From Lacunisphaera limnophila (GTDB lineage: Bacteria; Verrucomicrobiota; Verrucomicrobiia; Opitutales; Opitutaceae): a stretch of 64,000 nucleotides of DNA. The DNA lies in assembly GCF_001746835.1 (NCBI RefSeq), contig NZ_CP016094.1, positions 3,735,501 through 3,799,500 on the forward strand. The letters are read 5' to 3'. Below the pieces are notes generated by a model, which was not told where the DNA came from, searched no databases, and saw nothing but the letters and a program-made list of their open reading frames with translations. Positions 21,463 through 60,760 of this stretch are shown piece after piece (positions within the stretch are counted from its first letter, which is position 1; each line of letters opens with the position of its first letter). The position numbers and the translations under genes were made by a program.

Positions 21463-23001
21463 TCAGTCAGGCATGATGACATCTAGGTGCGCCATAAAAC
21501 CGCTCAGCGATATGAATGTGTAGTCGGGCTTGAAGCTACTGACGTCCTCATTCAATTTTTTGAATCCCGCTGGAATATACACAGTTTTATACCCCATTTT
21601 GTCAGCAGGCATTAGATCCGAAGACAGTTGATCGCCCACAGAGATAAACAGGCAGTTTTGGCGCAATATCGGGTCGACAGATTCACGAATCGAACCAAAC
21701 ACCAACTGCTTGTTTCTTTCAGAATAGACCTCATGAAAGAAGTTAGTCAATTCATGCGCCAGCAGTAGATTATGCACGCGTTGCAGACTACTTTCTGTGA
21801 GCAAAATCAACTTTGCATGCTTTTGGGCGCACTTCTCCAGCAATGCCTTAGCCTGTGGCAAAAGCCTTGGCTTCTCATTCAACCGCCGAAGGTACGTTGC
21901 TACGATCTCTTGTAAGCACGCGCTAACTTCTTCAGACAATTTATCTACTTCTTGCTTCTTCTCCGTCATTAAACCTCGGTACAGGCACTCCGCCAATAAC
22001 CATGGCGGATAGCGATTGCCCGCTGGATTTGATTCGGCGATTTTCTGATCGATTGCCCTGACATAATTAAGGCGTTCTCCGGTCACTTTATGATCCGCCA
22101 ACGCTTCGACACCGGACAACATCTCAAGCTGTGCTTCGCGGTAGATGGAATTGGTATCCCACAGTGTATTGTCGGCATCAAACACGATTACGATAGGATT
22201 GGGTACAGTTTTCACGATGGGTTCGGGCGAGGGGGTTACGATAGGTTCAGACACGGGAGGCGGGAGCACGGGAGGCGGAGTCATTTTTTCGAATCCGAAT
22301 ACCGTGGTCATCACGAGGAAAAGCATAAGGGCGAAGCCAAAATAGTATCCAGCTAGCGTGTGTAACTTCATTTTCCAGACCGTGATTTGCGAGATCAGCT
22401 TAATCTCTCCTAGATGCTGTCGCGCTACGACTTCCCGAAACTGATCGCGCTGATTTTGCATGAATGGGCGCACCCAATTCGCACCCGTTACGCGATCAAT
22501 CTCAGGGGCGAAAACCGTGCTCCTTGGCTTTAGCGATGTAGTATTACCCATGTTGTACTTGGGCAACAGCGTATAGAGAGAGATTAGCCCACCCACGACG
22601 CAGAAGAGATAATACAAGATCAACATTCCTGGGCCATACTTGGAAAACCAACTTCCTCGCGATGCCGACTCAAGGGCGAACGTGGAAAATGCACCCACCA
22701 GCGCACCCATAAACGCCATAGCAGTGAGGCGCCGCGAAGCTTTGTCATCCTCATGTTCGGACAAATGAGATACTGTATCTAGTCCACGAACGATAGTATC
22801 GAAATGTGGCTCGATGAATCCGTCATGGTTATCCAGTTGGTTGTAAAGTTCGTGGATGTAAATTTTTCTTCGGTATTTATCGACGCCACTGAGCAAAACG
22901 AAATGCAGAGTGAAGTACTCACGAAACCTATCAAATGCCCGCTCTGCTAAGCTACTTAGAAAGCGCCAGACTAAATGTCGAATCTGGTTCGAAGTTTGCA
23001 T
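21463..23001 (-). CDS. Membrane-anchored HAD-like phosphohydrolase inside the preQ0 operon
   Basis: The 512-residue product joins two parts. Residues 1-240 hold three predicted membrane helices (about 95-110, 125-146, 216-236) with a soluble helical loop between the second and third, a layout like SLATT/Pycsar-type membrane effectors. A Pro-rich linker (about 241-265) leads to a HAD domain with nucleophile motif FDADNTLWDTN (Asp 275 and 277), motif II LLTESS and metal motif VGDQLSSDL. The gene sits between queD and queE, is markedly AT-richer than its neighbours, and abuts queE. I know of no such protein in the Dpd system. It could be a phosphatase for a pathway intermediate or an added effector. 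I chose the ATG at 23001; a GTG at 23010 is possible. Confidence 0.75.
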   Translation of the reverse strand: MQTSNQIRHLVWRFLSSLAERAFDRFREYFTLHFVLLSGVDKYRRKIYIHELYNQLDNHDGFIEPHFDTIVRGLDTVSHLSEHEDDKASRRLTAMAFMGALVGAFSTFALESASRGSWFSKYGPGMLILYYLFCVVGGLISLYTLLPKYNMGNTTSLKPRSTVFAPEIDRVTGANWVRPFMQNQRDQFREVVARQHLGEIKLISQITVWKMKLHTLAGYYFGFALMLFLVMTTVFGFEKMTPPPVLPPPVSEPIVTPSPEPIVKTVPNPIVIVFDADNTLWDTNSIYREAQLEMLSGVEALADHKVTGERLNYVRAIDQKIAESNPAGNRYPPWLLAECLYRGLMTEKKQEVDKLSEEVSACLQEIVATYLRRLNEKPRLLPQAKALLEKCAQKHAKLILLTESSLQRVHNLLLAHELTNFFHEVYSERNKQLVFGSIRESVDPILRQNCLFISVGDQLSSDLMPADKMGYKTVYIPAGFKKLNEDVSSFKPDYTFISLSGFMAHLDVIMPD

Positions 23002-23009
23002 AACATACA

Positions 23010-23453
23010 CTAGAGATCACCAGTGTATCGTGCAGAATTTTTCGAGTCTTCGACAACCTCGACGGAGACAACATATGCCCGGTCTTGCGTATACTGCCGG
23101 ATTAATTCGTCAAACACCTCAAAGATGTGCTTTGCCATACCCTCGCACGAACAACATTCCACAACATAGATTTTCCAAGCCTTGGCACCCCCTACTGCTA
23201 CTAGCGCTTCCTTTAGCGGATCTTCTCGATTGAACACGCAAGCATGATCAAGTCGGTCATTGATCCAATCTTTGAGAAATTTGAGTTTTCCGAAATCAAC
23301 GACAAACCCGTTCTCATCCAACTGTGTGCAACCGAAAGTCACCCCGATACTCCAATTATGCCCGTGAATAAATGCACAGTGCCCGTCGTGACGATGCTGA
23401 CGGTGCGCCCAAGGAATATCCGTATAGACTTTTTTGCAGGTCGTATTGCTCAT
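23010..23453 (-). CDS. queD: 6-carboxy-5,6,7,8-tetrahydropterin synthase (QueD)
   Basis: QueD converts dihydroneopterin triphosphate to 6-carboxy-tetrahydropterin. In the 147 residues the zinc-binding and catalytic segment reads [19 protein letters not shown]: the HGHN histidines and a cysteine four residues before the first of them match QueD rather than mammalian PTPS. The later Glu segment ([10 protein letters not shown]) replaces the usual PTxENxA with unusual residues, so this is a divergent member. It overlaps queC by 4 bp. No other pterin enzyme family fits as well. Confidence 0.88.
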
Positions 23454-50001: not shown

Positions 50002-50535
50002 CTACAATAGAGTGAAGTGATGCGATCCGCGCACGAATTTCTCCTCAGAATTCATTTCACAATGGATGTCGCGGGTATGACGGTGAGATGGCTTCATATA
50101 GTGCCCGCTACGAAGGAAATCAAAGCCCACTACCGTCGCGGCGACTCGCTCCTGATGAAATAGGGCAAGAAGAGCTGTACCAGTGGTTGGGCGGGCAATG
50201 CCCAATAATTGATGCACGTCAGACACGGCATAAACCGCGCCAGGAAAACATGCATCGCCTGATTCCGATGCGTCGCACCGGAACGGACTGTAAGTTGTCA
50301 AACCGGCACGAGGCTGCAAATACCCATCTAGATTTGCGTAACTCGCCCAAGCTGTGGTCTTGCGGCCCACCTCTTTTTCGAAACCAGTGATCGCATAATT
50401 GTTGAATCGCACGACGATGTCGAAGCTATCGATATGTTCGCCCCAGTTACGGTGAAACACCGCGTTACCGACAACACATATTGAGCGTCCACGACAAGAG
50501 CGAATCCATGCTTCGGTTGAAACGGGCAATGACAT
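50002..50535 (-). CDS. Sialyltransferase-like glycosyltransferase (GT29-like)
   Basis: The 177-residue protein resembles the L-motif part of GT29 enzymes: SICVVGNAVFHRNWGEHID and FDIVVRFNNYAITGFEKEVG, with TTWASYANLD and VVGFDFLRSGHYMKPSHR later. It is shorter than a complete eukaryotic GT29 enzyme, as bacterial members usually are. It is the last gene of the phosphonate operon, 7 bp after the decarboxylase, and could place a phosphonate-bearing or acidic sugar; that is inference. Confidence 0.7.
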   Translation of the reverse strand: MSLPVSTEAWIRSCRGRSICVVGNAVFHRNWGEHIDSFDIVVRFNNYAITGFEKEVGRKTTAWASYANLDGYLQPRAGLTTYSPFRCDASESGDACFPGAVYAVSDVHQLLGIARPTTGTALLALFHQERVAATVVGFDFLRSGHYMKPSHRHTRDIHCEMNSEEKFVRGSHHFTLL

Positions 50536-50542
50536 GCCTGAA

Positions 50543-51700
50543 TTACACAGCTTGCAGCCAACACTGCAGGCGAGTGAATACTTGCTCAGGCGTCGTTTTC
50601 GGGCGCGGTAACTTGGTTGGCGAACCCGGTCGGATACGAAAATGAAGCAACGTTGGACCTTCGTTTCTAGGTGTCTTCAAATCCACTATAAATTGAGCCA
50701 GATCATCAGTTGCATTAACTCGGCGGTAGCCGCATGCTTGAGCGACAGCCGCAAATGAAACGCCGGAACTTACAGTTGATTGCCCCCCAGTGGACTCGTG
50801 TACTTCGTTATCTATGACGACATGGAGAAAATCGGGCGGAGCATAGGCGCCCAGCGTAGCAAGATTGCCCATTCGCATCAGCGCAGCTCCATCGCCATCG
50901 ATGACCGTGACGTGGTGTTTGCGATGGTGGAGAGCCAACCCCAGCCCGAATGCGCTGGCGGAGCCCATCGAACCTACTAGATACAAATTCCAAGGGTCAT
51001 CACCTAGGGCGTAAAGCTCACGGCCGGTATATCCTGTGGTGGCGATAAGAACTTCATCATCGTGACGCGCTTCCCGAATGGCCATCAACGCCTGAGTTCG
51101 CGTCGCTCGCAGATGCCGAGGTCGGGTGAATAATTCACGGAAGAAATGGTCAGTTGTCGTTGGAACTGTAGAAGACATATGCCGTTCTGACGGGTACGGC
51201 TCAATCCCATCGCTGCTAAGGACCAACGCATAAGGTCGCCGCGTCGTCATCATCGAGGCAATCGCCCGATCAAGTACCGCGTCGAGAGCCGCAGGGTCCC
51301 GCGGTAAGCGGCTCCAGGGGATTTCTAGTAGATCAAGGAGCTTATTTGTTATCCGGCCCATCTGCTCGTGCTGCGGTTCATCAGGCTGGGCGCCAGGTTC
51401 GCCGCGGTGCGTTATGACGAGTAGTATCGGCACCCGAAAAGGGTAGCATAGCGAAGTCAGTGCGTTGACCGCATTGCCCAAGCCAGAATTCTGGAACATG
51501 GCCATAGCCGGCGCCCCACCTAAGACTGCCCCGGCAGCCATAGCAACGGCATCACCTTCGTTGACGGCATCGCGAAACTGAAATCGTTTATCTTCAAGTG
51601 AAGCATCAATTAATGGTTTCAGATAGGAACAAGGAACGCCCGTAACCAGTCGTACTCCTCGTACAAAACAACCATCGAGAAAAACACGCGCTGAAACCAT
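50543..51700 (-). CDS. ppd: Phosphonopyruvate decarboxylase
   Basis: This TPP enzyme makes phosphonoacetaldehyde from phosphonopyruvate and pulls the unfavourable mutase reaction forward. The 385 residues show VTGVPCSYLKPLIDASLED, NEGDAVAMAAGAVLGG (substrate/TPP glutamate region), FQNSGLGNAVNALTSL and the TPP-binding GDGAALMRMGNLATLG with IDNEVHESTGGQSTVS. It lies 2 bp downstream of the mutase gene. Confidence 0.95.
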   Translation of the reverse strand: MVSARVFLDGCFVRGVRLVTGVPCSYLKPLIDASLEDKRFQFRDAVNEGDAVAMAAGAVLGGAPAMAMFQNSGLGNAVNALTSLCYPFRVPILLVITHRGEPGAQPDEPQHEQMGRITNKLLDLLEIPWSRLPRDPAALDAVLDRAIASMMTTRRPYALVLSSDGIEPYPSERHMSSTVPTTTDHFFRELFTRPRHLRATRTQALMAIREARHDDEVLIATTGYTGRELYALGDDPWNLYLVGSMGSASAFGLGLALHHRKHHVTVIDGDGAALMRMGNLATLGAYAPPDFLHVVIDNEVHESTGGQSTVSSGVSFAAVAQACGYRRVNATDDLAQFIVDLKTPRNEGPTLLHFRIRPGSPTKLPRPKTTPEQVFTRLQCWLQAV

Positions 51701-51702
51701 GG

Positions 51703-53322
51703 TTAAGATTGGTGGGTGGCTTTAAGGCCGACCGCAGAGTCGGCTGTAGTCCAATCAGAAGAAACGAGAATTACCTTGATCCGCTCACCGCTATTTTGAA
51801 GCGCGAGTAGCGCATCGAGCAATGAGTGTGGCCTTTCTGTTGTCTTTATATTTAAACGGCCGACTAGATTTCTCAAGGTCTCGGCACCCCGAGCCGAACA
51901 CTTGAGCAGTCCGAGCCATTCGGCATCAAACCGCGAAAAGGCATCTGAGAAAGCCGCCGATCTAAGAACCACATCGGCGTCGATGAATACGTGGGGGGCG
52001 GGATTTGCGAGCTTCAGCAGGCAGCGCGGCCGTCCGGCATGACGCCGTATTGAGCGGTCCGCCGCGATCACGAAATCAGCCGGATCTTCGAGCATCTGTT
52101 GAAGAATGTAGCGTCGGCATAGCACATCGGCCAAGGCGATAACACAGGTTCCTTGCAGAAGGTCCGCCGCTTGTTTAAGCGCACCAACATCGCCGCTTGT
52201 ATTCCAAACCCGTTGCCCGACGATTCGAACAGCAGCGCGGGAAATCGCTTCGACGCGAGATCCCGCAACTATGGTGATATCTCGCACATTCAGTGTGGAA
52301 AGGGTATTACACATTCTCTCGACGATCGAGATTCCATCTACGCAGACCATTGCCTGCGATAACTTCTGCGAGGGCAAATGCCGGATAGACTTATCTCTCG
52401 TTCCAACTAACAAAATTGCTTTTCGCTGGGCCGCGCCATCACCGAAGCGTCCTTCCGCCACGCGCAACTCCTCATCGCCTTGGAGACGAAAAACCTCATT
52501 TAGTGACGCGATCTTTGGCTCAATTCGCGAAACACTGCGCTCTCGGACAATGCGAACCGCCGTCGACTGCATTGCAGCTATGCTCGAGCGCAGGAGGTGA
52601 TTTGCCCAAATGAGAGCTGCGACGCGACGTCGCGCGAAATGCTGGGTGGGTGTGGTGTGATACTTAGTGGGAATCAGGATAATGGGGTGCCGGTTTTCCC
52701 ACCGGTCGAGAAAAGCAAATATTTCATCAGGGGACGCATGTGCGCTATGCACGATTATGGCGTCCGCGCCAGCTTGCCGATAGGCCTCGGCGCGGCGAAT
52801 TGCCTCCGCCAAGCCACAGCCTGCAATCAGTGCCTCCGTGCGCGCAATGAGCACAAAGCTCTCATCGTACTGCGCATCCTTACCTGCCTTAATCTTGCCG
52901 CAAAAGTCGTCGACCGGAGCCAACAACTGGGAGGGGCCACGTTGAAAACTGTTAGCTTTGGGGAAGATCTTATCTTCGAGGCACACCCCTGCGATGCCGC
53001 GCTGTTCGAGCTTTCGGACCAAGCGACGGAAATTATTAAAATTTCCAAAGCCCGTGTCGCCGTCGAAGAGGATGGGAACTTGGGTCGCATCCGCCATAAA
53101 CTCGGCGACTTCGACAACCTGAGTCCAGCTCGCTTCATTATTATCGCGCACACCAAGTGAGGCGGAAATCGCCAGTCCACTGGCCCAAATCGCCGGGAAG
53201 CCAGCCTCTTCCGCAATTCGTGCGGACAGGCCATTGTGTGCTTCCATGATGAAATCGAGCCGAGTAGTGGTAAGCAACGCTCGCAGCATCTGGGCCTTAG
53301 TTGGCGGGCTGTCAGTTTTCAT
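51703..53322 (-). CDS. pepM: Phosphoenolpyruvate phosphomutase fused to a nucleotidyltransferase-like domain
   Basis: The first 290 of 539 residues are PEP mutase: FIMEAHNGLSARIAEEAGF, LFDGDTGFGNFNNFRRLV and the diagnostic EDKIFPKANSFQ, with IARTEALIAGCG. The remainder resembles a MobA/IspD-type nucleotidyltransferase (QAMVCVDGISIVERMCNTLS, NVRDITIVAGSRVEAI), but its glycine-rich nucleotide loop is replaced by VGTRDKSIRHLPSQK, so its activity is doubtful. In intact fusions this domain activates the phosphonate with CTP. The ATG at 53322 overlaps the transaminase gene by 11 bp. Confidence 0.92.
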   Translation of the reverse strand: MKTDSPPTKAQMLRALLTTTRLDFIMEAHNGLSARIAEEAGFPAIWASGLAISASLGVRDNNEASWTQVVEVAEFMADATQVPILFDGDTGFGNFNNFRRLVRKLEQRGIAGVCLEDKIFPKANSFQRGPSQLLAPVDDFCGKIKAGKDAQYDESFVLIARTEALIAGCGLAEAIRRAEAYRQAGADAIIVHSAHASPDEIFAFLDRWENRHPIILIPTKYHTTPTQHFARRRVAALIWANHLLRSSIAAMQSTAVRIVRERSVSRIEPKIASLNEVFRLQGDEELRVAEGRFGDGAAQRKAILLVGTRDKSIRHLPSQKLSQAMVCVDGISIVERMCNTLSTLNVRDITIVAGSRVEAISRAAVRIVGQRVWNTSGDVGALKQAADLLQGTCVIALADVLCRRYILQQMLEDPADFVIAADRSIRRHAGRPRCLLKLANPAPHVFIDADVVLRSAAFSDAFSRFDAEWLGLLKCSARGAETLRNLVGRLNIKTTERPHSLLDALLALQNSGERIKVILVSSDWTTADSAVGLKATHQS

Positions 53323-54403
53323 GCAGATACTCCCGGACAGCGGCAATGAAGCCACGCATGTCATGAGGTGTTAGAGCACCAATGTTTGCGACTCGGAATG
53401 ATTTTTCATGGCGCAACTTGCCGGGGTAGAGAGTGATATCCCGCGCATACAGGTAATCGTGCAATTGCTCAAAAGAAAAGCCGGGCGCATCATGGCTGTG
53501 GAACGCCGTGAGTAATTGAGAATGAAGCGCTTTGGGAAGAACGGTCCTAAACCCGAGCTGTTCCATTCCGTCGAGCATCACTGAATAGCATGCACGATAG
53601 CGGGCTGCGCGGGCTGCAACGGTTTCGGTTAGCGTCTCTTGCAGTGCGCACGCCATCGCGTATAAGACCTGAACAGGCGGAGTAAAAGGAAACTGCCCAT
53701 TGATCAGACTGGCTTCATGGCGAGCGAGATTCAAAGTGTATGTTCTACCTATTGCGGAACTTCTTTCGATTAATTCCTGCGGGCCTAGGACAAAGCTCAC
53801 GCCGGGCATACCCTGCAGGCACTTGTTTGCGCTGCTTATGATGAAATCAACCGCATCTTCCCGTAATGAAATTGGAAGGCCAGCAAATGACGACATTGCG
53901 TCGACGATCGAGACGACACCGCAGGATCGGCAGATCCGACCGTATTCTGCCAAAGGAGTAAGCATGCCAGTCGTAGTTTCATGATGCACCCAGAAGGCAT
54001 GAGTGAATCGACCTGCAGTGATGCGTGCTGCAAATTCTACGGGGGATGGGCATACCGTCCAAGGTAAGGACCACACATCAACTGGAATTTGCAGCGTAGT
54101 TGCGATCTCCGCAGCACGCTCACCATAAGCGCCGTTTTCAATAATAAGGACGCGTCCATCTCGTGGCACCAGAGATCCTAGTGCGGCCTCAACCGCCGCA
54201 GTACCCGGACCGGCGATAAGTACCGCGCAGTGAGTTTCGGGATCGGCCCCGGACACGGTCAATAGGTCACGACGGATTTGGTATACCACTGAACCGAACT
54301 CTCTTTCACGTGGGCAGATGTCGGGAACGACCAAGGCCCGCTTGACGATGTTGGTGGTCGTTCCAGGGCCGGGATTGAGAAGGATTTTGCGGCGCGGATT
54401 CAA
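53312..54403 (-). CDS. phnW: 2-aminoethylphosphonate:pyruvate transaminase
   Basis: The PLP enzyme interconverts phosphonoacetaldehyde and 2-aminoethylphosphonate; in this locus it should run towards AEP. The 363 residues include ILLNPGPGTTTNIVKRALV at the start, IAGPGTAAVEAALGSLVP, VSIVDAMSSFAGLPI and the PLP lysine in SSANKCLQGMPGVSFVLGP. It lies between the HAD phosphatase and the mutase fusion. Confidence 0.93.
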   Translation of the reverse strand: MNPRRKILLNPGPGTTTNIVKRALVVPDICPREREFGSVVYQIRRDLLTVSGADPETHCAVLIAGPGTAAVEAALGSLVPRDGRVLIIENGAYGERAAEIATTLQIPVDVWSLPWTVCPSPVEFAARITAGRFTHAFWVHHETTTGMLTPLAEYGRICRSCGVVSIVDAMSSFAGLPISLREDAVDFIISSANKCLQGMPGVSFVLGPQELIERSSAIGRTYTLNLARHEASLINGQFPFTPPVQVLYAMACALQETLTETVAARAARYRACYSVMLDGMEQLGFRTVLPKALHSQLLTAFHSHDAPGFSFEQLHDYLYARDITLYPGKLRHEKSFRVANIGALTPHDMRGFIAAVREYLHEN

Positions 54404-54414
54404 ATTCGATTGTC

Positions 54415-55173
54415 TTACAGTCTTAAGTGCCGCGGGCCAGGGGTGAAGAGAAAGTCTCGGAGTTCGGCTAAGGAGTTGATAACTGTGAGCGCGCCGGAAA
54501 AATCATGCCGTAGAGTCAACTTATTCGGCATGGCGATACAGGCGATATTTGCTGCTAGTGCGGCGGCTAGGCCGCGTTGAGAATCCTCAATAGCAAGGCA
54601 GCTTGGCAAAAATGCTCCCATATCGCCCGCAGCCCGCAGGTAGATGTCCGGAGATGGCTTACAGCGTTTGACCTCTGACCCGGTCACAATGTAGTCGAAT
54701 AGTTCCAAGAAACCTGTCGCGCCATGTAAAAGTGTTAGAGCCTGTCGCGAATTGCTGGTCACGAGCCCAATTCGATAGCAACGACGGAGCTCGGCAAGCA
54801 ACTGGTGTGCGTTGTCATTGATGATTATAGCCTCTAGGCGGTTGTAATACAGCTCCCTCCGCACTGCGAGGAAAGCGTCCAAGTATTGTTCTTTTAGCCC
54901 CAATGCCTGAGCGACCAAAGTAGAGGACATGCCATTTTGCAGGTAGAGTTCGGACCAGATATCGCAGCCTAGCTCGATTCCGTGTCGGCCCAATGCTTCT
55001 CTGGTCGCGTCAAAATAGGCCCATTCTGTATCGACCAGTGTCCCATCGTGATCAAAGAGCAAGGTATCAATCTGCCAAGGGACCCCACTTACACCAATCA
55101 CTCGCGCCGTCTTTTGAGAATATTCGCGATTTGCCACTATGGCGGTGTTCTCCCTAAAGCTGTTGGCAGTCAT
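54415..55173 (-). CDS. HAD-superfamily phosphatase (beta-phosphoglucomutase-like)
   Basis: The 252-residue protein has HAD motifs LLFDHDGTLVDTEWAYFDA, LVTSNSRQAL, CKPSPDIYLRAAGD and AIEDSQRGLAAALAANI, and a helical cap domain between the first two. It is not phosphonoacetaldehyde hydrolase, whose first motif differs. Being first in the phosphonate operon, it may remove a phosphate from an intermediate or a nucleotide-activated phosphonate. The 97 bp before it contain the likely operon promoter. Confidence 0.85.
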   Translation of the reverse strand: MTANSFRENTAIVANREYSQKTARVIGVSGVPWQIDTLLFDHDGTLVDTEWAYFDATREALGRHGIELGCDIWSELYLQNGMSSTLVAQALGLKEQYLDAFLAVRRELYYNRLEAIIINDNAHQLLAELRRCYRIGLVTSNSRQALTLLHGATGFLELFDYIVTGSEVKRCKPSPDIYLRAAGDMGAFLPSCLAIEDSQRGLAAALAANIACIAMPNKLTLRHDFSGALTVINSLAELRDFLFTPGPRHLRL

Positions 55174-55270: not shown

Positions 55271-56698
55271 TCACTTAGCATATGTCGATCGGCTTTTCGT
55301 ACGGAAAACCGCCTTTCCCTCAGGGAAGTCTTTGTGCACGACACTAACGTATTCAGCAAGATCATGATCTAGTAGCTTGTGCTCGGCATCCAGCGTTTCC
55401 CAGGTGTCTGAAGGGATTGCGAGGGAGGATGAAACTGTCCTTGGGTCCGATGGGAGGCGAAGTGGTCGTGCCAGATCCTGCCGTTGCGGTGTTGAGACTT
55501 CAGATAGAGTCGACGCGTGAGGGTGAGCGAGGCCAAATGGCCATAAGAACAGGCCGCAGAGTGCCATGAACCCAACAATGGGCACCAACGCAGTATAACG
55601 GGATGCCATCCCGACTACGACATTGGCGCTGTTTAGGACCGCTGGTTCAAGGTAATGGGTTTCTGTCTCATTCTCCTCGAAGTAGGCATACGGGATTGAA
55701 CCGACGCCGTCACGGTGAGGACTGGCCGAAGCCCAGCCTTCCCCCCAGGAGTTCTGAAAAAGAAAATGCCCGCCACCCGGGGCTTCGTGGTCGTCCCTAT
55801 ACCCGACGAGCAATATCGCGTGCCACCCCAGAAGGGTGTCATCTTCGCCTAGTCTCAGAGAAACGGTTCCGGTCCGGAATGCAGCATCCCAGGAGGCATA
55901 GACAGGCACTGCGGCCAAAACAGGCCTTCCCTGCCCTGCGGTGCCATATGCGAGCGCCGTCTTGATTCCGTGAATTGTGTCGATCGGACCGGACCTAGCG
56001 GCCGATATTCCGAAGCCGGAGGCTTCCTCATCTGCCGCCTCGTCCGGGAGACCGAGACCATCCAGTGACCGCATCTCCGCATCGGCTCCTGGCCAAGTCG
56101 CCAATTTGCACGCTCCGAACTGGCTCAAAGCTTCAATACCGGCCTCCAAGGTGGTGCCGTCCTCGTGAGGATGACCATCGAGTGCCTTGCTGTGGAGGTA
56201 AACATAACTTCCGGATAGGACATCGCCCGTGTGCATTTCCACGGCCGCAGTGGCCGCGTGTCCTACACAGGCTGGATTCACCCCTTGGTCGTGGATGTAT
56301 GGAATTGAGGCCGTCATATCGACCTCGGCGGGAAGCCCTCCGTGTTGCTCGAGCTGCAAGCCTAGGAGCTGTGAGATGGCATTTGGGCGCAGTGCCACCT
56401 GGTCAGGGTTCTTTCTTGGCCGACGCACCGCCCCGAAACTGCGAGAATGTGCCTTGATCTGTCGGGTAAGCTCTACCGGCTCGACGTGGATACGGCGCAC
56501 AGAGCTGTCACCCCAGACAGACGTTAGCTTTGCATCCGTTGAAGTATATTGGGCCACAAGCTCCGGTTGGCTGTGCAGCAGGCAGGCGAGCTGGTCAGCC
56601 TCGCGTATACCCCGGAGTGCCAAGCGCTCTCGCTCGGCCTTTCTGAGGCCTTTCAGACCGCGTAGGAACTTGGGCGAGATGGCGCGCTTAGGCTTCAT
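55271..56698 (-). CDS. Papain-like (C1 family) cysteine peptidase with a membrane anchor
   Basis: From the ATG at 56698 the product has 475 residues. The N-terminal part is basic with a helix-hairpin-like stretch (FLRGLKGLRKAERERLALRG). The peptidase core has the active-site Cys in QGVNPACVGHAATAA, the His in LLGWHAILLVGYRDD and the Asn in FQNSWGEGWAS. A membrane helix follows (YTALVPIVGFMALCGLFLW), then a Pro/Ser-rich tail. It is the last gene of the nine-gene envelope operon and overlaps the gene before it by 11 bp. It may process or release another operon product. Confidence 0.85.
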   Translation of the reverse strand: MKPKRAISPKFLRGLKGLRKAERERLALRGIREADQLACLLHSQPELVAQYTSTDAKLTSVWGDSSVRRIHVEPVELTRQIKAHSRSFGAVRRPRKNPDQVALRPNAISQLLGLQLEQHGGLPAEVDMTASIPYIHDQGVNPACVGHAATAAVEMHTGDVLSGSYVYLHSKALDGHPHEDGTTLEAGIEALSQFGACKLATWPGADAEMRSLDGLGLPDEAADEEASGFGISAARSGPIDTIHGIKTALAYGTAGQGRPVLAAVPVYASWDAAFRTGTVSLRLGEDDTLLGWHAILLVGYRDDHEAPGGGHFLFQNSWGEGWASASPHRDGVGSIPYAYFEENETETHYLEPAVLNSANVVVGMASRYTALVPIVGFMALCGLFLWPFGLAHPHASTLSEVSTPQRQDLARPLRLPSDPRTVSSSLAIPSDTWETLDAEHKLLDHDLAEYVSVVHKDFPEGKAVFRTKSRSTYAK

Positions 56699-56957
56699 GG
56701 GTTTTGCCTGGATGCCGGAGTCCGAATCGGCCGACCTTGGCCTGATCTCCTGAATTCGGGACAATCAAGTCCACGCGAGCATGCAAGGCCACCATCTCAT
56801 CAGGAGGGAGATCCAGTAGTGTCGCTACGGCTCCCCGGCTCTCCGGGCTACCGTGGAGAAGGTCTGACAGAGACTCCACCGACACTATCCCACGGGAGTG
56901 CAGCCGCTGGATCGTTTCCAGCGACAGTGGGAGTAAATTAAGAGCGGTGACTTTCAT
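56688..56957 (-). CDS. Small hypothetical protein with a helix-hairpin-like core
   Basis: The 89-residue protein (NLLPLSLETIQRLHSRGIVS, VESLSDLLHGSPESRG, AVATLLDLPPDEMVALHARV) looks like a helix-hairpin-helix or SAM-like bundle similar to the N-terminal segment of the peptidase that follows. Both ends overlap neighbours (4 bp with the gene before, 11 bp with the peptidase), so it is coupled within the operon. Confidence 0.65.
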   Translation of the reverse strand: MKVTALNLLPLSLETIQRLHSRGIVSVESLSDLLHGSPESRGAVATLLDLPPDEMVALHARVDLIVPNSGDQAKVGRFGLRHPGKTHEA

Positions 56958-57595
56958 ACGCCCACCATAATGGTTCGTGCTGGACGACTGCCTACAGCGG
57001 GCATCCTGAGCGTCACCTCGTTTCGCCCGCGGGGTTCGACAACGATAACAAGAGCCTGATCGCGCAACTCAGGCCGGACTTCCTCAACCCAGGCACGGAG
57101 CCGGGTAATCACGTTCAAATGCATCCTCAGTACGGCATCGGTACCGGTCATTTTGATAGCGAGCGTGGCGGAGTATTGCGACAGGAGTTCATCGCCCTCC
57201 TCCCCCGCTGGCACCTTGCGATCACCAAGGTGGTAGCCAAGGCTGGGTGACTGCCAGATGAAGGCAGGCGCCAGATCTTCAGGTCGGCCTCGCCAGCGGA
57301 AACTAAGAGGCGGGAAGGCAAACTTTTGTGCAGCCTGCTTGTCATGTTCATCGATCTCTGTGTGCGCCGAAACGGTCTCTATCTCCTCGAATGAGGCCGG
57401 TAGGGACTTGTTTTCCGGGGTCGGGACGGAGGGCTGGGTTTGCGACGTCTCGTTGGCCGCGGCAGGAGCCGCAGGCGCCGGTTTGGCGGGCGGCGGCATG
57501 CCGGCTGGCATGATGAGGGGGGACAGCACAAGGCAAAGAGCGACTCCGAAAAGGCTCCCCATGCACAGCCCTAGAATGCGGGGCCAGTTAGGCAT
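56954..57595 (-). CDS. Single-pass envelope protein with a proline-rich linker
   Basis: From the ATG at 57595 the product has 213 residues: an N-terminal membrane helix (ILGLCMGSLFGVALCLVLSP), a Pro/Ala-rich linker (about 35-70) and a soluble domain (SATLAIKMTGTDAVLRMHLN, DQALVIVVEPRGRNEVTLRM). The layout resembles TonB- or MotB-like proteins spanning the periplasm, but no peptidoglycan-binding motif is seen. It overlaps the preceding gene by 8 bp. Confidence 0.65.
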   Translation of the reverse strand: MPNWPRILGLCMGSLFGVALCLVLSPLIMPAGMPPPAKPAPAAPAAANETSQTQPSVPTPENKSLPASFEEIETVSAHTEIDEHDKQAAQKFAFPPLSFRWRGRPEDLAPAFIWQSPSLGYHLGDRKVPAGEEGDELLSQYSATLAIKMTGTDAVLRMHLNVITRLRAWVEEVRPELRDQALVIVVEPRGRNEVTLRMPAVGSRPARTIMVGV

Positions 57596-58139
57596 GGGTC
57601 TGGGCGGGTTGAGTGTGTTCAAACCAAACAAAACGGGCCACCATGAGAACGGCGTTAAGGACCCAGAGCCCAAACTTGAAATAAAGGCTACCGATCAGGG
57701 CACGTGCATCCTGGCCCTGCTCCCCTGATACGGTCAGGACGCCGTAAAGCGAAATGGCCATAGTGAAGAGCCCCAGCAAAAGTGAAGCCGCCTTAAAAAG
57801 GCTCAGGGTGCCGGCGGGAGAGACACCGGCGGCGACTTGCCTGCGAAACGCCATCTCGTAGGACACAAACAGTCCTGCCGCTAGGAGAACGAAGGGCAGG
57901 TTGTGGGTCAGGTTGAACCCAGCAAACTGACCAAGATCGTGCAATACCGGCAGGAAGGCTCCGATAAGGCCTTCCAAGGCCGGGGCCGGCGCCCACTCCA
58001 AAAGGTAAGCAAGCCACCATAGGAGTGCGAACAGGAGAACCGCGAGAAGGCCTTGGAGGGCCGACTTGAGGAACGCGCCCAGGGATGAGGCAAGGATGCG
58101 AACGTTCAGGGCTGAGGAGGGAAACAATGCAGGTTTCAT
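57588..58139 (-). CDS. Polytopic inner membrane protein
   Basis: The 183-residue protein has four or five membrane helices (ALQGLLAVLLFALLWWLAYL, LPFVLLAAGLFVSYEMAF, AASLLLGLFTMAISLYGVLT, YFKFGLWVLNAVLMVARFVW). It has no signature of a known transporter. Next to a single-pass protein with an intramembrane Asp, it could play the MotA/ExbB role in an energy-coupled complex, but sequence evidence for that is lacking. Confidence 0.7.
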   Translation of the reverse strand: MKPALFPSSALNVRILASSLGAFLKSALQGLLAVLLFALLWWLAYLLEWAPAPALEGLIGAFLPVLHDLGQFAGFNLTHNLPFVLLAAGLFVSYEMAFRRQVAAGVSPAGTLSLFKAASLLLGLFTMAISLYGVLTVSGEQGQDARALIGSLYFKFGLWVLNAVLMVARFVWFEHTQPAQTHA

Positions 58140-58151
58140 TTGAATGCGGTT

Positions 58152-58535
58152 CTATTGTTTGTGGCTGATGACCTTGACAGATGACGCCTGCTGTAAGGTC
58201 TGAAAGATGTCGTAAGGGACCTCTACGATCAGCGACCCATCAGCAGAAGGACTGGCCGCTGCGCTCAGGTTGCCCTTCAGGATGTGGGTGACGGGACGAG
58301 CCTCGGGGCCATCTGATTTGGTGGGTTTGCCGTCAGGCTGCTCGGCCCCGGACTTGATAGTGACGGAGTTCTGACCCTCACTGGCACGCGAAGGCTGCGT
58401 GGTCGTCAGCGAGGCCAGGCAAAGCCACAGCGCCAGCATGAGAAAGATTCCGTCGGCGATGCCGATGTAAACAGCACCGTCGTCGTGGGCAGCACTGCTT
58501 ACTCGACGCATAACCGGCGGGTTGGACGTTTGCAT
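58152..58535 (-). CDS. Single-pass membrane protein with intramembrane Asp, MotB/ExbD-like layout
   Basis: The 127-residue protein has a cytoplasmic start, one membrane helix (VYIGIADGIFLMLALWLCLA, about 22-41) that contains Asp 28, a charged linker, and a small C-terminal domain (GSLIVEVPYDIFQTLQQASS). ExbD and MotB have an essential Asp at a comparable position, and the neighbouring gene encodes a polytopic partner. This similarity is topological only. It lies 12 bp before the polytopic gene. Confidence 0.6.
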   Translation of the reverse strand: MQTSNPPVMRRVSSAAHDDGAVYIGIADGIFLMLALWLCLASLTTTQPSRASEGQNSVTIKSGAEQPDGKPTKSDGPEARPVTHILKGNLSAAASPSADGSLIVEVPYDIFQTLQQASSVKVISHKQ

Positions 58536-58553
58536 GACGCAGTGGCTTGCTGG

Positions 58554-58922
58554 TTACTGATTCTGGAGCTTGAGCCGGTAGATCCGGTCATAGCCCAGAG
58601 TGAGCGCCTCAAAGCGGGCGATCAGCAACGCCGGACCGAGGTTGCGTTCGTCGGTCGTGCGCAGGGGTGCCCGCTCCAAGCGCACACCGCTGCGGTTGGC
58701 GATGCCGACCATGAGCTGGTAGGCTTCGACCGAATCGCGCGAGAGCTTGCCGGTTTCAAGGTACTCCGCGATGAGTCGCCCCGACAGGGTCTTGTACTGC
58801 TGCTGCACGTCAGGGGCGTTTACAGGGGATTCGCCAAGGCGAAGTGCGTAGGACTGGGTCTCGGCACCGTAGGAGAGGGCAAAGGTGCCCCCGAGGATAA
58901 GCATGAGGATGAAGTTTTTCAT
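58554..58922 (-). CDS. Small exported protein
   Basis: The 122-residue product begins with a signal peptide (MKNFILMLILGGTFALSYG) and continues as a soluble helical domain (QQYKTLSGRLIAEYLETGKL, EAYQLMVGIANRSGVRLERA). No family is recognised. It lies between the coiled-coil exported protein and the single-pass membrane protein of the same operon. Confidence 0.65.
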   Translation of the reverse strand: MKNFILMLILGGTFALSYGAETQSYALRLGESPVNAPDVQQQYKTLSGRLIAEYLETGKLSRDSVEAYQLMVGIANRSGVRLERAPLRTTDERNLGPALLIARFEALTLGYDRIYRLKLQNQ

Positions 58923-58953
58923 GATGGATGTGGTTCGGATTTCAGAATGGGAT

Positions 58954-59754
58954 CTACTTGAAGAACTTGTTGATTTCCATGGCCTTGATCACGTCCGAGC
59001 CGTTCTGCGCAGACATGATCTGCGGATTGCCGCCGTTGCCAGCGCGGATAGTGATAGTTCTTTTCATGTTATTCCAGGCGATGGCGTTGATTGCGTAAAT
59101 GCCGGCCTGATACTCGAGCTGGTTGGCCTCACGAAGCCGGCTGATCACAAGTTCGCGGACATTGGCCGAGGTAAAGCCGGACTGCTGCAAGACGTGCCGA
59201 AACTCGGGAAACGAATTACTCAGGCTGTCGACCTCCTTGCGCAGATCATCGTTCAGTTCGCGTTTTTCCTGCTCGAGGGCGCGCATGTCCGCGCTGATCA
59301 AGCTGGCCGCTTCACCGGAGAGGTTTGCAGACTCACCGTTCGACGGCATCGTATTGCGGCTCGCGCGGCGGACGGTCGCCTTGATCAGGTTGACTGCGTC
59401 CTCGGCCGCCTCTCTCGCTTCGGCCAGCTTTGAGTCACGCAAGGTCTCCAGCGTCTTGGGCACACCGGCCTCCATGCCGGCCCACCAGGCTTCTGAGGCT
59501 TTTTCGAGGTCCTTTGCCTTGAGGCTCTCAACGAGAACGCCGGAGATTTGGCGCGCTTGCTGGATGGTGCCGTCTGCACTCTCCGCCTGGTTCTGGAGAA
59601 GGCGTTTGGCGGCACGCTCCTGCACATGGGTGATGACCTTTTGCGCCTCCTCGGTAAGGATCAAAGTGCCCTCGCTCTGGGCGAGGGACTTGCCGGCGAC
59701 GATCATAGCAAGGAGCGCCGCCAACAGGATACGATGGATGATAAGGGTTTTCAT
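58954..59754 (-). CDS. Exported coiled-coil protein
   Basis: The 266-residue product has a signal peptide (RILLAALLAMIVAGKSLA) and a mostly helical mature part, with a likely coiled coil (ISADMRALEQEKRELNDDLR) and repeated Ala/Glu-rich segments. The C-terminal part is different (NNMKRTITIRAGNGGNPQIM). No known domain is visible. It could form a periplasmic rod or filament subunit; this is only a topological impression. Confidence 0.65.
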   Translation of the reverse strand: MKTLIIHRILLAALLAMIVAGKSLAQSEGTLILTEEAQKVITHVQERAAKRLLQNQAESADGTIQQARQISGVLVESLKAKDLEKASEAWWAGMEAGVPKTLETLRDSKLAEAREAAEDAVNLIKATVRRASRNTMPSNGESANLSGEAASLISADMRALEQEKRELNDDLRKEVDSLSNSFPEFRHVLQQSGFTSANVRELVISRLREANQLEYQAGIYAINAIAWNNMKRTITIRAGNGGNPQIMSAQNGSDVIKAMEINKFFK

Positions 59755-59781
59755 GTATGGTAAGGAGTTTGTGGTTTCAGA

Positions 59782-60366
59782 TTAGAGTTCCGTTCTCAGG
59801 AGGTTCTGGATTTCCGGATGTGCGATGTTGACGAGTTCATCCGGGAGGTCGCGGCCCAGGCGACGGAGCGCCACCAGGTAGGTTTCGACCTCGCCGCCAA
59901 GCGGCGTTTTGCGAATTCCGCGGTAACCCGCTTCCCAGTGCTGGGTCGCGGTACCGAGTGTTTCGGTATCATTGGCCAGCAGCGCGTGTTGCAGGGCCAT
60001 GGTCGCGAGGCGGACCTGCTCCTCCGGAGTTGAGAACTCGTTGTCTTGCAAGGTAGAGTTGAGCAAGCGGCCAGAACGCAGGTAGGATGCCGAGTCAGTC
60101 TTGCGGGCCGCCCAGACCCGATTCGCCTCATCAACGACGGCCTGATTCTTCACGTTGATCGGGCTGCGGTCGTCGAGAGGGTCCTTGGCGATGCCGTTGA
60201 ACTGGATCTTGGCCGGCGGCGGCACCTCAACCACGGCGACGGGGGCCGGACTAGATGCGCATCCGGACAGGAGAGCGGAAATGGCTACAACGATGACCCC
60301 AAGGTGTGTCCGACTGAATCCGGACGCGCCAGAGCGCGAATACGATGCAATAGTGGTAGTGTTCAT
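59782..60366 (-). CDS. Predicted lipoprotein
   Basis: The 194-residue protein has a signal sequence ending in the lipobox VVAISALLSGCASSPAP, so the mature protein should be lipid-anchored. The helical domain (NQAVVDEANRVWAARKTDSA, VRLATMALQHALLANDTETL, AYLVALRRLGRDLPDELV-like) may be TPR-like. It lies 27 bp upstream of the coiled-coil protein gene. Confidence 0.7.
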   Translation of the reverse strand: MNTTTIASYSRSGASGFSRTHLGVIVVAISALLSGCASSPAPVAVVEVPPPAKIQFNGIAKDPLDDRSPINVKNQAVVDEANRVWAARKTDSASYLRSGRLLNSTLQDNEFSTPEEQVRLATMALQHALLANDTETLGTATQHWEAGYRGIRKTPLGGEVETYLVALRRLGRDLPDELVNIAHPEIQNLLRTEL

Positions 60367-60379
60367 AGATCGGGTGATG

Positions 60380-60760
60380 TTAGCGGTTAGAGTTTGAGGT
60401 TTCGGCCGCCAGCAGGCGGGAAAGATTGGGCATACTGGGAATGGCGATGGGCTCGCCGGTCGCCGTCATATTTCGTGCGACGGGGACTTCACCCTGCAAG
60501 AGGCGCTGCAGGTGCGTTACAGGCTTACCCGACTTAGGCTGTGTACCTTCCGGGCGTGCCGAAACAGACTTGTCAGGGATTACGGCGCTGATGCGTTCAG
60601 CGGCAGTCTTCACCTGGGCTTTGGCTGCTTCGACCGCTTGCGCGGCCTGCTCGGTAACTGGTGTCGAAGCTGCTTTGGATTGTGCTTTCTTGTGCTTGAT
60701 TAAAAGGCCGACGGCAAAAAGGCCTACAATCACGATTAAAAAGGTCACTATGGTCTTCAT
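60380..60760 (-). CDS. Single-pass protein heading the envelope operon
   Basis: From the ATG at 60760 the product has 126 residues: one N-terminal membrane helix (MKTIVTFLIVIVGLFAVGLL), an Ala/Lys-rich helical segment (QAAQAVEAAKAQVKTAAERI) and a short Pro-containing tail. No family is recognised. It is the first gene of the nine-gene operon; a GGAGGA-like sequence does not occur directly before the ATG. Confidence 0.6.
   Translation of the reverse strand: MKTIVTFLIVIVGLFAVGLLIKHKKAQSKAASTPVTEQAAQAVEAAKAQVKTAAERISAVIPDKSVSARPEGTQPKSGKPVTHLQRLLQGEVPVARNMTATGEPIAIPSMPNLSRLLAAETSNSNR

Follow-up and report, generated by a model that had tools for sequence, protein, structure and literature searches.

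Bacterial peptidases of the papain family (C1) have mostly been studied as secreted enzymes or effectors. Here we describe a nine-gene operon that ends with the gene of a membrane-anchored C1 peptidase, in a 64,000 nt stretch of Lacunisphaera limnophila DNA (NZ_CP016094.1; 'the window'). The operon is real, rare and largely unclassified, and the enzyme at its centre shows a known family in a new layout. Its genes are named g1 to g9 in the order of transcription.

Xylellain (PDB 3ois) and other short bacterial C1A peptidases are like the g9 product in their C1 domain and catalytic residues; g9 differs in having a helical segment at its N-terminus and a membrane helix towards its C-terminus, and in its place within a nine-gene envelope operon. 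Of the relatives that we inspected, many are free-standing or begin with a hydrophobic segment; this gene set accompanies none of them. The peptidase-containing ATP-binding cassette (ABC) transporters (PCATs) have, as the operon appears to have, a cysteine peptidase on the cytosolic side of a membrane assembly. However, g9 belongs to C1 and not to C39, the PCAT peptidase family (Pfam finds only PF00112), and none of the nine genes encodes an ABC ATPase. In the ExbD/TolR/MotB and ExbB/TolQ/MotA systems a single-pass protein with an acidic residue in its helix stands beside a polytopic one, as do g5, which is about the size of ExbD, and g6, yet neither g5 nor g6 gives a profile match to these motors. 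Searches of open-licence papers in PubMed Central (PMC) brought up no such operon.

RESULTS

Nine adjoining genes on one strand

The first-pass annotation, made from the DNA letters, had described nine genes on one strand with gaps of at most 31 bp or overlaps. Nine adjoining open reading frames (ORFs) were all found on the minus strand between 60760 and 55271, and in each of them the annotated frame had the highest codon log-likelihood of the six frames, with 14 other window genes as the codon-usage reference. The listed ORFs of g7 and g9 start with TTG (57673 and 56764, respectively). In-frame ATG codons at 57595 (g7) and 56698 (g9), which overlap the preceding stop by 8 and 11 bp, appear likelier as starts. 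With the corrected starts the spacing in transcription order is 13, 27, 31, 18, 12, −8, −4 and −11 bp, the last three being the overlaps at g6/g7, g7/g8 and g8/g9 (8, 4 and 11 bp). An SDR gene lies 373 bp upstream of g1, and a HAD hydrolase gene follows g9 on the same strand at a distance of 97 bp.

Topology was assigned by simple hydropathy, with a strict and a loose threshold, and by the absence of signal peptides. The genes are the following, with the counterparts found in a second copy (L019) described below:

g1, 60380 to 60760, minus strand: single-pass membrane protein, 126 aa, N-terminal helix 3-21
g2, 59782 to 60366, minus strand: lipoprotein, 194 aa, lipobox LLSGC; homologue L019:5313-6161
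g3, 58954 to 59754, minus strand: exported protein, seemingly mostly helical, 266 aa; positional counterpart L019:6210-6992 (260 aa)
g4, 58554 to 58922, minus strand: small exported protein of 122 aa; matched by position with L019:7030-7404 (124 aa)
g5, 58152 to 58535, minus strand: single-pass protein of 127 aa whose helix includes Asp 28; matched by position with L019:7401-7787 (128 aa)
g6, 57588 to 58139, minus strand: polytopic membrane protein of 183 aa; by position, the equivalent of the N-terminal part of L019:7784-8911
g7, 56954 to 57595, minus strand: single-pass protein of 213 aa whose C-terminal domain is large; by position, the equivalent of the C-terminal part of L019:7784-8911
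g8, 56688 to 56957, minus strand: small soluble protein, 89 aa
g9, 55271 to 56698, minus strand: membrane-anchored C1A papain-like peptidase, 475 aa from the ATG at 56698; homologue L019:9237-10739

Hydropathy, lipobox and Pfam results agree with the anatomy proposed earlier (membrane proteins, a lipoprotein, exported proteins, a helical protein and a C1 peptidase). The export signal of g4 was seen only at the looser threshold, and the count of hydrophobic segments in g6 rose from two (strict) to five (loose).

Only g9 belongs to a recognisable family. An NCBIfam scan of the nine products gave nothing near the cut-offs, and none of the nine matched a PADLOC-DB model. Across Pfam, NCBIfam, PADLOC and PHROGs, no ATPase, transporter or toxin family appeared among them at a credible score. 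A spanin pair of the Rz/Rz1 type was considered for g1 and g2 and rejected: the PHROG matches were weak (best E 0.002 for g2 and 0.007 for g1) and covered residues 20-52 of g2, which are its lipoprotein signal region, and the membrane region of g1. The PHROG scan, which covered ten proteins, gave no further match to a lysis gene.

The g9 product is a papain-family peptidase

The g9 product matched PF00112 (Peptidase_C1) with 20.7 bits, exactly at the cut-off of 20.7, and a PHROG peptidase family with E 2e-5. For an alignment of its C1 domain, 17 further C1 proteins, including one from L019, were picked from a longer list of matches. The active-site residues Q26, C32, H181 and N204 (numbering of the 251-aa domain) were invariant in 18 of 18 sequences. 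The structure model of the domain, made from these 18 sequences, had a mean pLDDT (predicted local distance difference test) of 85.8. Its best match among solved structures was xylellain (25% identity, TM-score 0.74 by query, Foldseek E 7e-16), which also came first by sequence profile (E 2e-17). Judged by the order of its Gln, Cys, His and Asn residues and by the fold and profile matches, g9 is a catalytically intact C1A peptidase.

The protein has no signal peptide. An N-terminal helical segment precedes the C1 domain, which is followed by one membrane helix (residues 392-410, counted from the TTG). The L019 peptidase has the same layout: a C-terminal helix is present, and the N-terminal part lacks a hydrophobic segment. 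Since there is no signal peptide and the single helix is near the C-terminus, the catalytic domain should be cytosolic, and the last ~85 residues should be periplasmic. The intact catalytic residues, PF00112 and the C-terminal helix bear out the earlier assignment of a membrane-anchored C1 peptidase. Relatives of g9 in the phylum, order and family samples (see below) matched only in and around the C1 domain, the second host of the operon excepted.

C1 peptidases in other settings were also met. In L077:8355-15710 such a peptidase has two helices at its C-terminus, and a protein that combines a caspase domain with BspA-type leucine-rich repeats is close by; the peptidases of L072 and L081 have similar C-terminal helix pairs. 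Two other genomes of the family have free-standing xylellain-type peptidases (L115:9674-10717 and L116:9347-10297) a few genes away from Pvc16_N-domain proteins, which belong to clusters of the contractile-injection type.

The g8 product and the N-terminal part of g9 have a segment in common. In g8 it lies at residues 17-39 (QRLHSRGIVSVESLSDLLHGSPE) and in g9 near the start (ERLALRGIREADQLACLLHSQPE); the two aligned with a score of 51 (z 6.4), a value reached in none of 500 shuffles. The same comparison in L019 gave z 3.2 (5 of 500 shuffles), but there other residues were aligned. The segment may be a docking element. The g3 product and the C-terminus of g9 showed a possible resemblance (2 of 500 shuffles, in one of 15 window comparisons), which was not repeated in L019 (301 of 500) and was set aside.

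A collinear copy in another family of Opitutales

The neighbourhood search suggested with the first-pass annotation located the gene set in one other genome. This collinear cluster (L019/L089) is on contig 29 (JAFIGH010000177.1) of genome G139, the metagenome-assembled genome Opitutales bacterium Super_Day6_Bin.11, which belongs to a different Opitutales family. Its presence there speaks against a chance grouping of the genes. The order in L019 is: lipoprotein (282 aa), exported protein (260 aa), small membrane or exported protein (124 aa), single-pass protein (128 aa), fusion of a polytopic part to a part made of a helix and a domain (375 aa), small soluble protein (104 aa) and peptidase (500 aa). 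The matching products of the window have 194, 266, 122, 127, 183+213, 89 and 475 aa. The L019 peptidase ORF overlaps the preceding ORF by 8 bp, which resembles the overlap at g9.

Pairwise similarity was judged against locally shuffled sequences. The two peptidases aligned with z 29. The lipoproteins gave z 6.4 (0 of 200 shuffles), and z 6.2 (1 of 500) after removal of the signal peptide. Collinearity is based on these two homologous ends and on the genes between them, which agree in order, size and topology. The equivalents of g6 and g7 form a single gene in L019 (L019:7784-8911), which argues that the g6 and g7 products touch.

Upstream of the second copy, L089:1840-5637 (minus strand) encodes a TPR protein of 1265 aa, with the P-loop-like sequence GDPGMGLS close to the N-terminus.

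A possible envelope complex controlling a cytosolic protease

The reading that we favour, tentatively, is that the nine genes encode one envelope complex, which controls a cytosolic membrane-anchored papain-like protease. A single complex is suggested by the fusion of g6 and g7 in L019, by the overlaps and by the collinearity of the second copy. Regulated proteolysis through the envelope is favoured by the combination of a competent protease on the putative cytosolic side with the lack of an ATPase and of a recognised motor driven by the proton motive force (pmf). Such a complex would include the g2 lipoprotein, with g3 and g4 in the periplasm; g1, g5, g6 and g7 would be in the inner membrane, the C-terminal domain of g7 outside. 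In the cytosol g8 and the N-terminus of g9 could meet through their common small helical segment. A change outside would be sensed, the signal would pass through the complex, and protease and substrate would be brought together. The gene order, the catalytic residues, the C1 fold and the single collinear copy were observed; the complex, its topology, the direction of the signal and the substrate are what we infer. The more specific proposal, a hitherto undescribed lipoprotein-to-cytosol complex that signals across the envelope and switches on a papain-like protease held on the cytosolic face of the inner membrane, is doubtful.

Several observations weigh against the favoured reading. No candidate was identified for the sensor or for the substrate, and the topology depends on simple hydropathy and on a missing signal peptide. 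Conservation is thin, since the known copies are two. Between them g4, g5, g6, g7 and g8 showed no significant sequence similarity to their positional counterparts in L019, and g1 had no clear counterpart. The g3 pair gave z 3.1 with the signal peptide and z 0.3 without it (176 of 500 shuffles). The model of full-length g9, made from two sequences, was unusable (mean pLDDT 35.9).

If the more specific proposal is true, bacteria would have a form of regulated proteolysis that uses a C1 enzyme and not the usual serine, metallo- or intramembrane proteases. A membrane-anchored C1 peptidase with an apparently cytosolic active site, among envelope proteins that cannot be classified, would point to an uncharted coupling of envelope and proteolysis. 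Rarity limits the breadth of the finding; nearly all of the parts are outside the present family libraries. Neither the favoured reading nor any of the four alternatives weighed below (export, motor, defence, phosphonate) has direct evidence.

The position of the peptidase also bears on an export system with a maturation protease, in which the membrane proteins would form a channel and g9 would remove the leader of the cargo at the cytosolic face, like the C39 domain of PCATs. PCATs are the precedent for such a system (PMC6959990). The g9 peptidase is on the inferred cytosolic side and its operon includes the adjoining polytopic protein, and the lipoprotein and the periplasmic proteins could make the outer part. 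However, the nine genes include no ATPase, no pmf-motor family, no obvious cargo gene and no known channel family, and we consider export unlikely.

The acidic residue of g5

The first-pass annotation had pointed out an Asp in the membrane helix of the 58152 product (g5), beside a polytopic protein, and had likened it to MotB/ExbD. The Asp is where it was said to be, at position 28 within the predicted helix 22-40. On this basis g5 could be the acidic stator-like subunit of a pmf-driven MotAB/ExbBD-like motor, with the adjoining g6 as its polytopic partner. A GAVYxG motif next to the helix is common to g5 and its L019 counterpart, and in an ungapped alignment after this motif Asp 28 faces Glu 21 of the L019 protein. 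Glu 21 precedes the predicted helix of that protein (27-45), and the alignment of the pair, the only two sequences available for this comparison, was not significant (47 of 200 shuffles scored as high).

The genome has six ExbD and eight MotA/ExbB matches, none of them at the operon. In hhalign the g5 pair matched the six ExbD proteins with a probability of 2.75%, through 30 other columns that do not contain the acidic residue, and g6 matched the eight ExbB/MotA proteins with 0.09%, whereas the controls from the same genome gave 99.68% (ExbD-ExbD) and 99.52% (ExbB-ExbB). The ExbD/ExbB alignments include L103 and L107 ORFs with long, unlikely N-termini. Pfam gave no match of g5 to PF02472 at E 1, and g6 had no profile match to PF01618. 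Two-sequence profiles are poor, so a distant kinship is possible, though nothing supports it. With no match of g5 or g6 where the controls matched well, the energy coupling proposed in the first-pass annotation was not upheld, and we regard a motor as highly improbable.

Rarity of the operon

Full-length matches to g9 were found in 2 of 387 genomes of the phylum sample (G139 and G000, the genome of the window) and in 2 of 372 of the order sample. The family sample (252 genomes) contained one, G000 itself, and so did the relatives of G139 (223 genomes), G139 itself. A g7 profile found the same two hosts among 384 genomes of the class, plus three genomes with weak matches (E 0.0018-0.007), which we took as chance. 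These samples overlap. No third copy of the operon was found in them (223 to 387 genomes each). When the genome_contigs collection was scanned with two short patterns, the L019 contig alone came back; such patterns can miss divergent copies. Among 189 related genomes g7 had no relatives, apart from one chance match in a Pro/Ala-rich stretch (L003).

No relatives of g6 were found in viral contigs, and none of g6 or g7 in plasmids. Viral scans with g9, a g9 profile and a lipoprotein profile gave nothing collinear; they did return one C1-domain locus (L090), whose neighbours were not inspected. Plasmid and phage searches with g9 gave C1-domain matches only, likewise with neighbourhoods not inspected. 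At the other C1 loci that were inspected there was no match to the two-sequence profiles A1, A3, A4 and A5; g8 has no profile, and small divergent genes could escape this search.

Genomic setting

From ~20 kb to beyond the end of the window the G+C content is 0.49-0.60, with 0.59-0.65 before and 0.62-0.68 after this region. The low-G+C region extends from ~20000 to L088:12664 (~70663 on the window scale), and its right edge is near a tRNA-Glu gene (L088:12590-12664). This suggests an integrated island. A repeat of the tRNA-Glu end that could be an attachment site was sought and not found.

Such a setting, together with the patchy occurrence in two Opitutales families and the large TPR protein with a P-loop-like N-terminus beside the second copy, would suit a cell-suicide or phage-defence module, whose envelope part would sense infection and free the cytosolic protease. 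Against this, none of the nine genes matched PADLOC, only two of ten checked neighbours gave matches, both weak, and nine genes are many for a system of this kind. We hold defence to be rather unlikely.

A phosphonate cluster (window 50002-55173, minus strand) begins 97 bp downstream of g9. It encodes the HAD hydrolase mentioned above, a class V aminotransferase, a phosphoenolpyruvate (PEP) mutase fused to a nucleoside triphosphate (NTP) transferase, a thiamine pyrophosphate (TPP) enzyme and a GT29-like (sialyltransferase-family) protein, which, speculatively, could transfer a CMP-activated phosphonate. Passages of PMC6697681 place PEP mutase-NTP transferase fusions in the phosphonyl tailoring of cell surfaces. 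The position of the cluster on the same strand as the operon would fit a surface pathway in which the complex processes or attaches polymers decorated with 2-aminoethylphosphonate. G139, however, gave no PEP mutase match in a search that had no positive control, so that a functional tie between operon and cluster is unsupported. The inspected upstream part of L089 has no such genes; on the downstream side the contig ends after ~340 bp. A phosphonate role is improbable, and control of a cytosolic protease is still the reading that we favour.

Two further loci were noted in and around the low-G+C region. At L088:4665-8103 (window scale 62664 onward) two large ORFs (579 and 577 aa) overlap each other, and neither has a Pfam or PADLOC match. 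At window 21463-23010 a 515-aa protein has a weak PADLOC match to PycTM (E 3.5e-4); the genes around it resemble, by their sequence, queuosine/7-deazaguanine genes.

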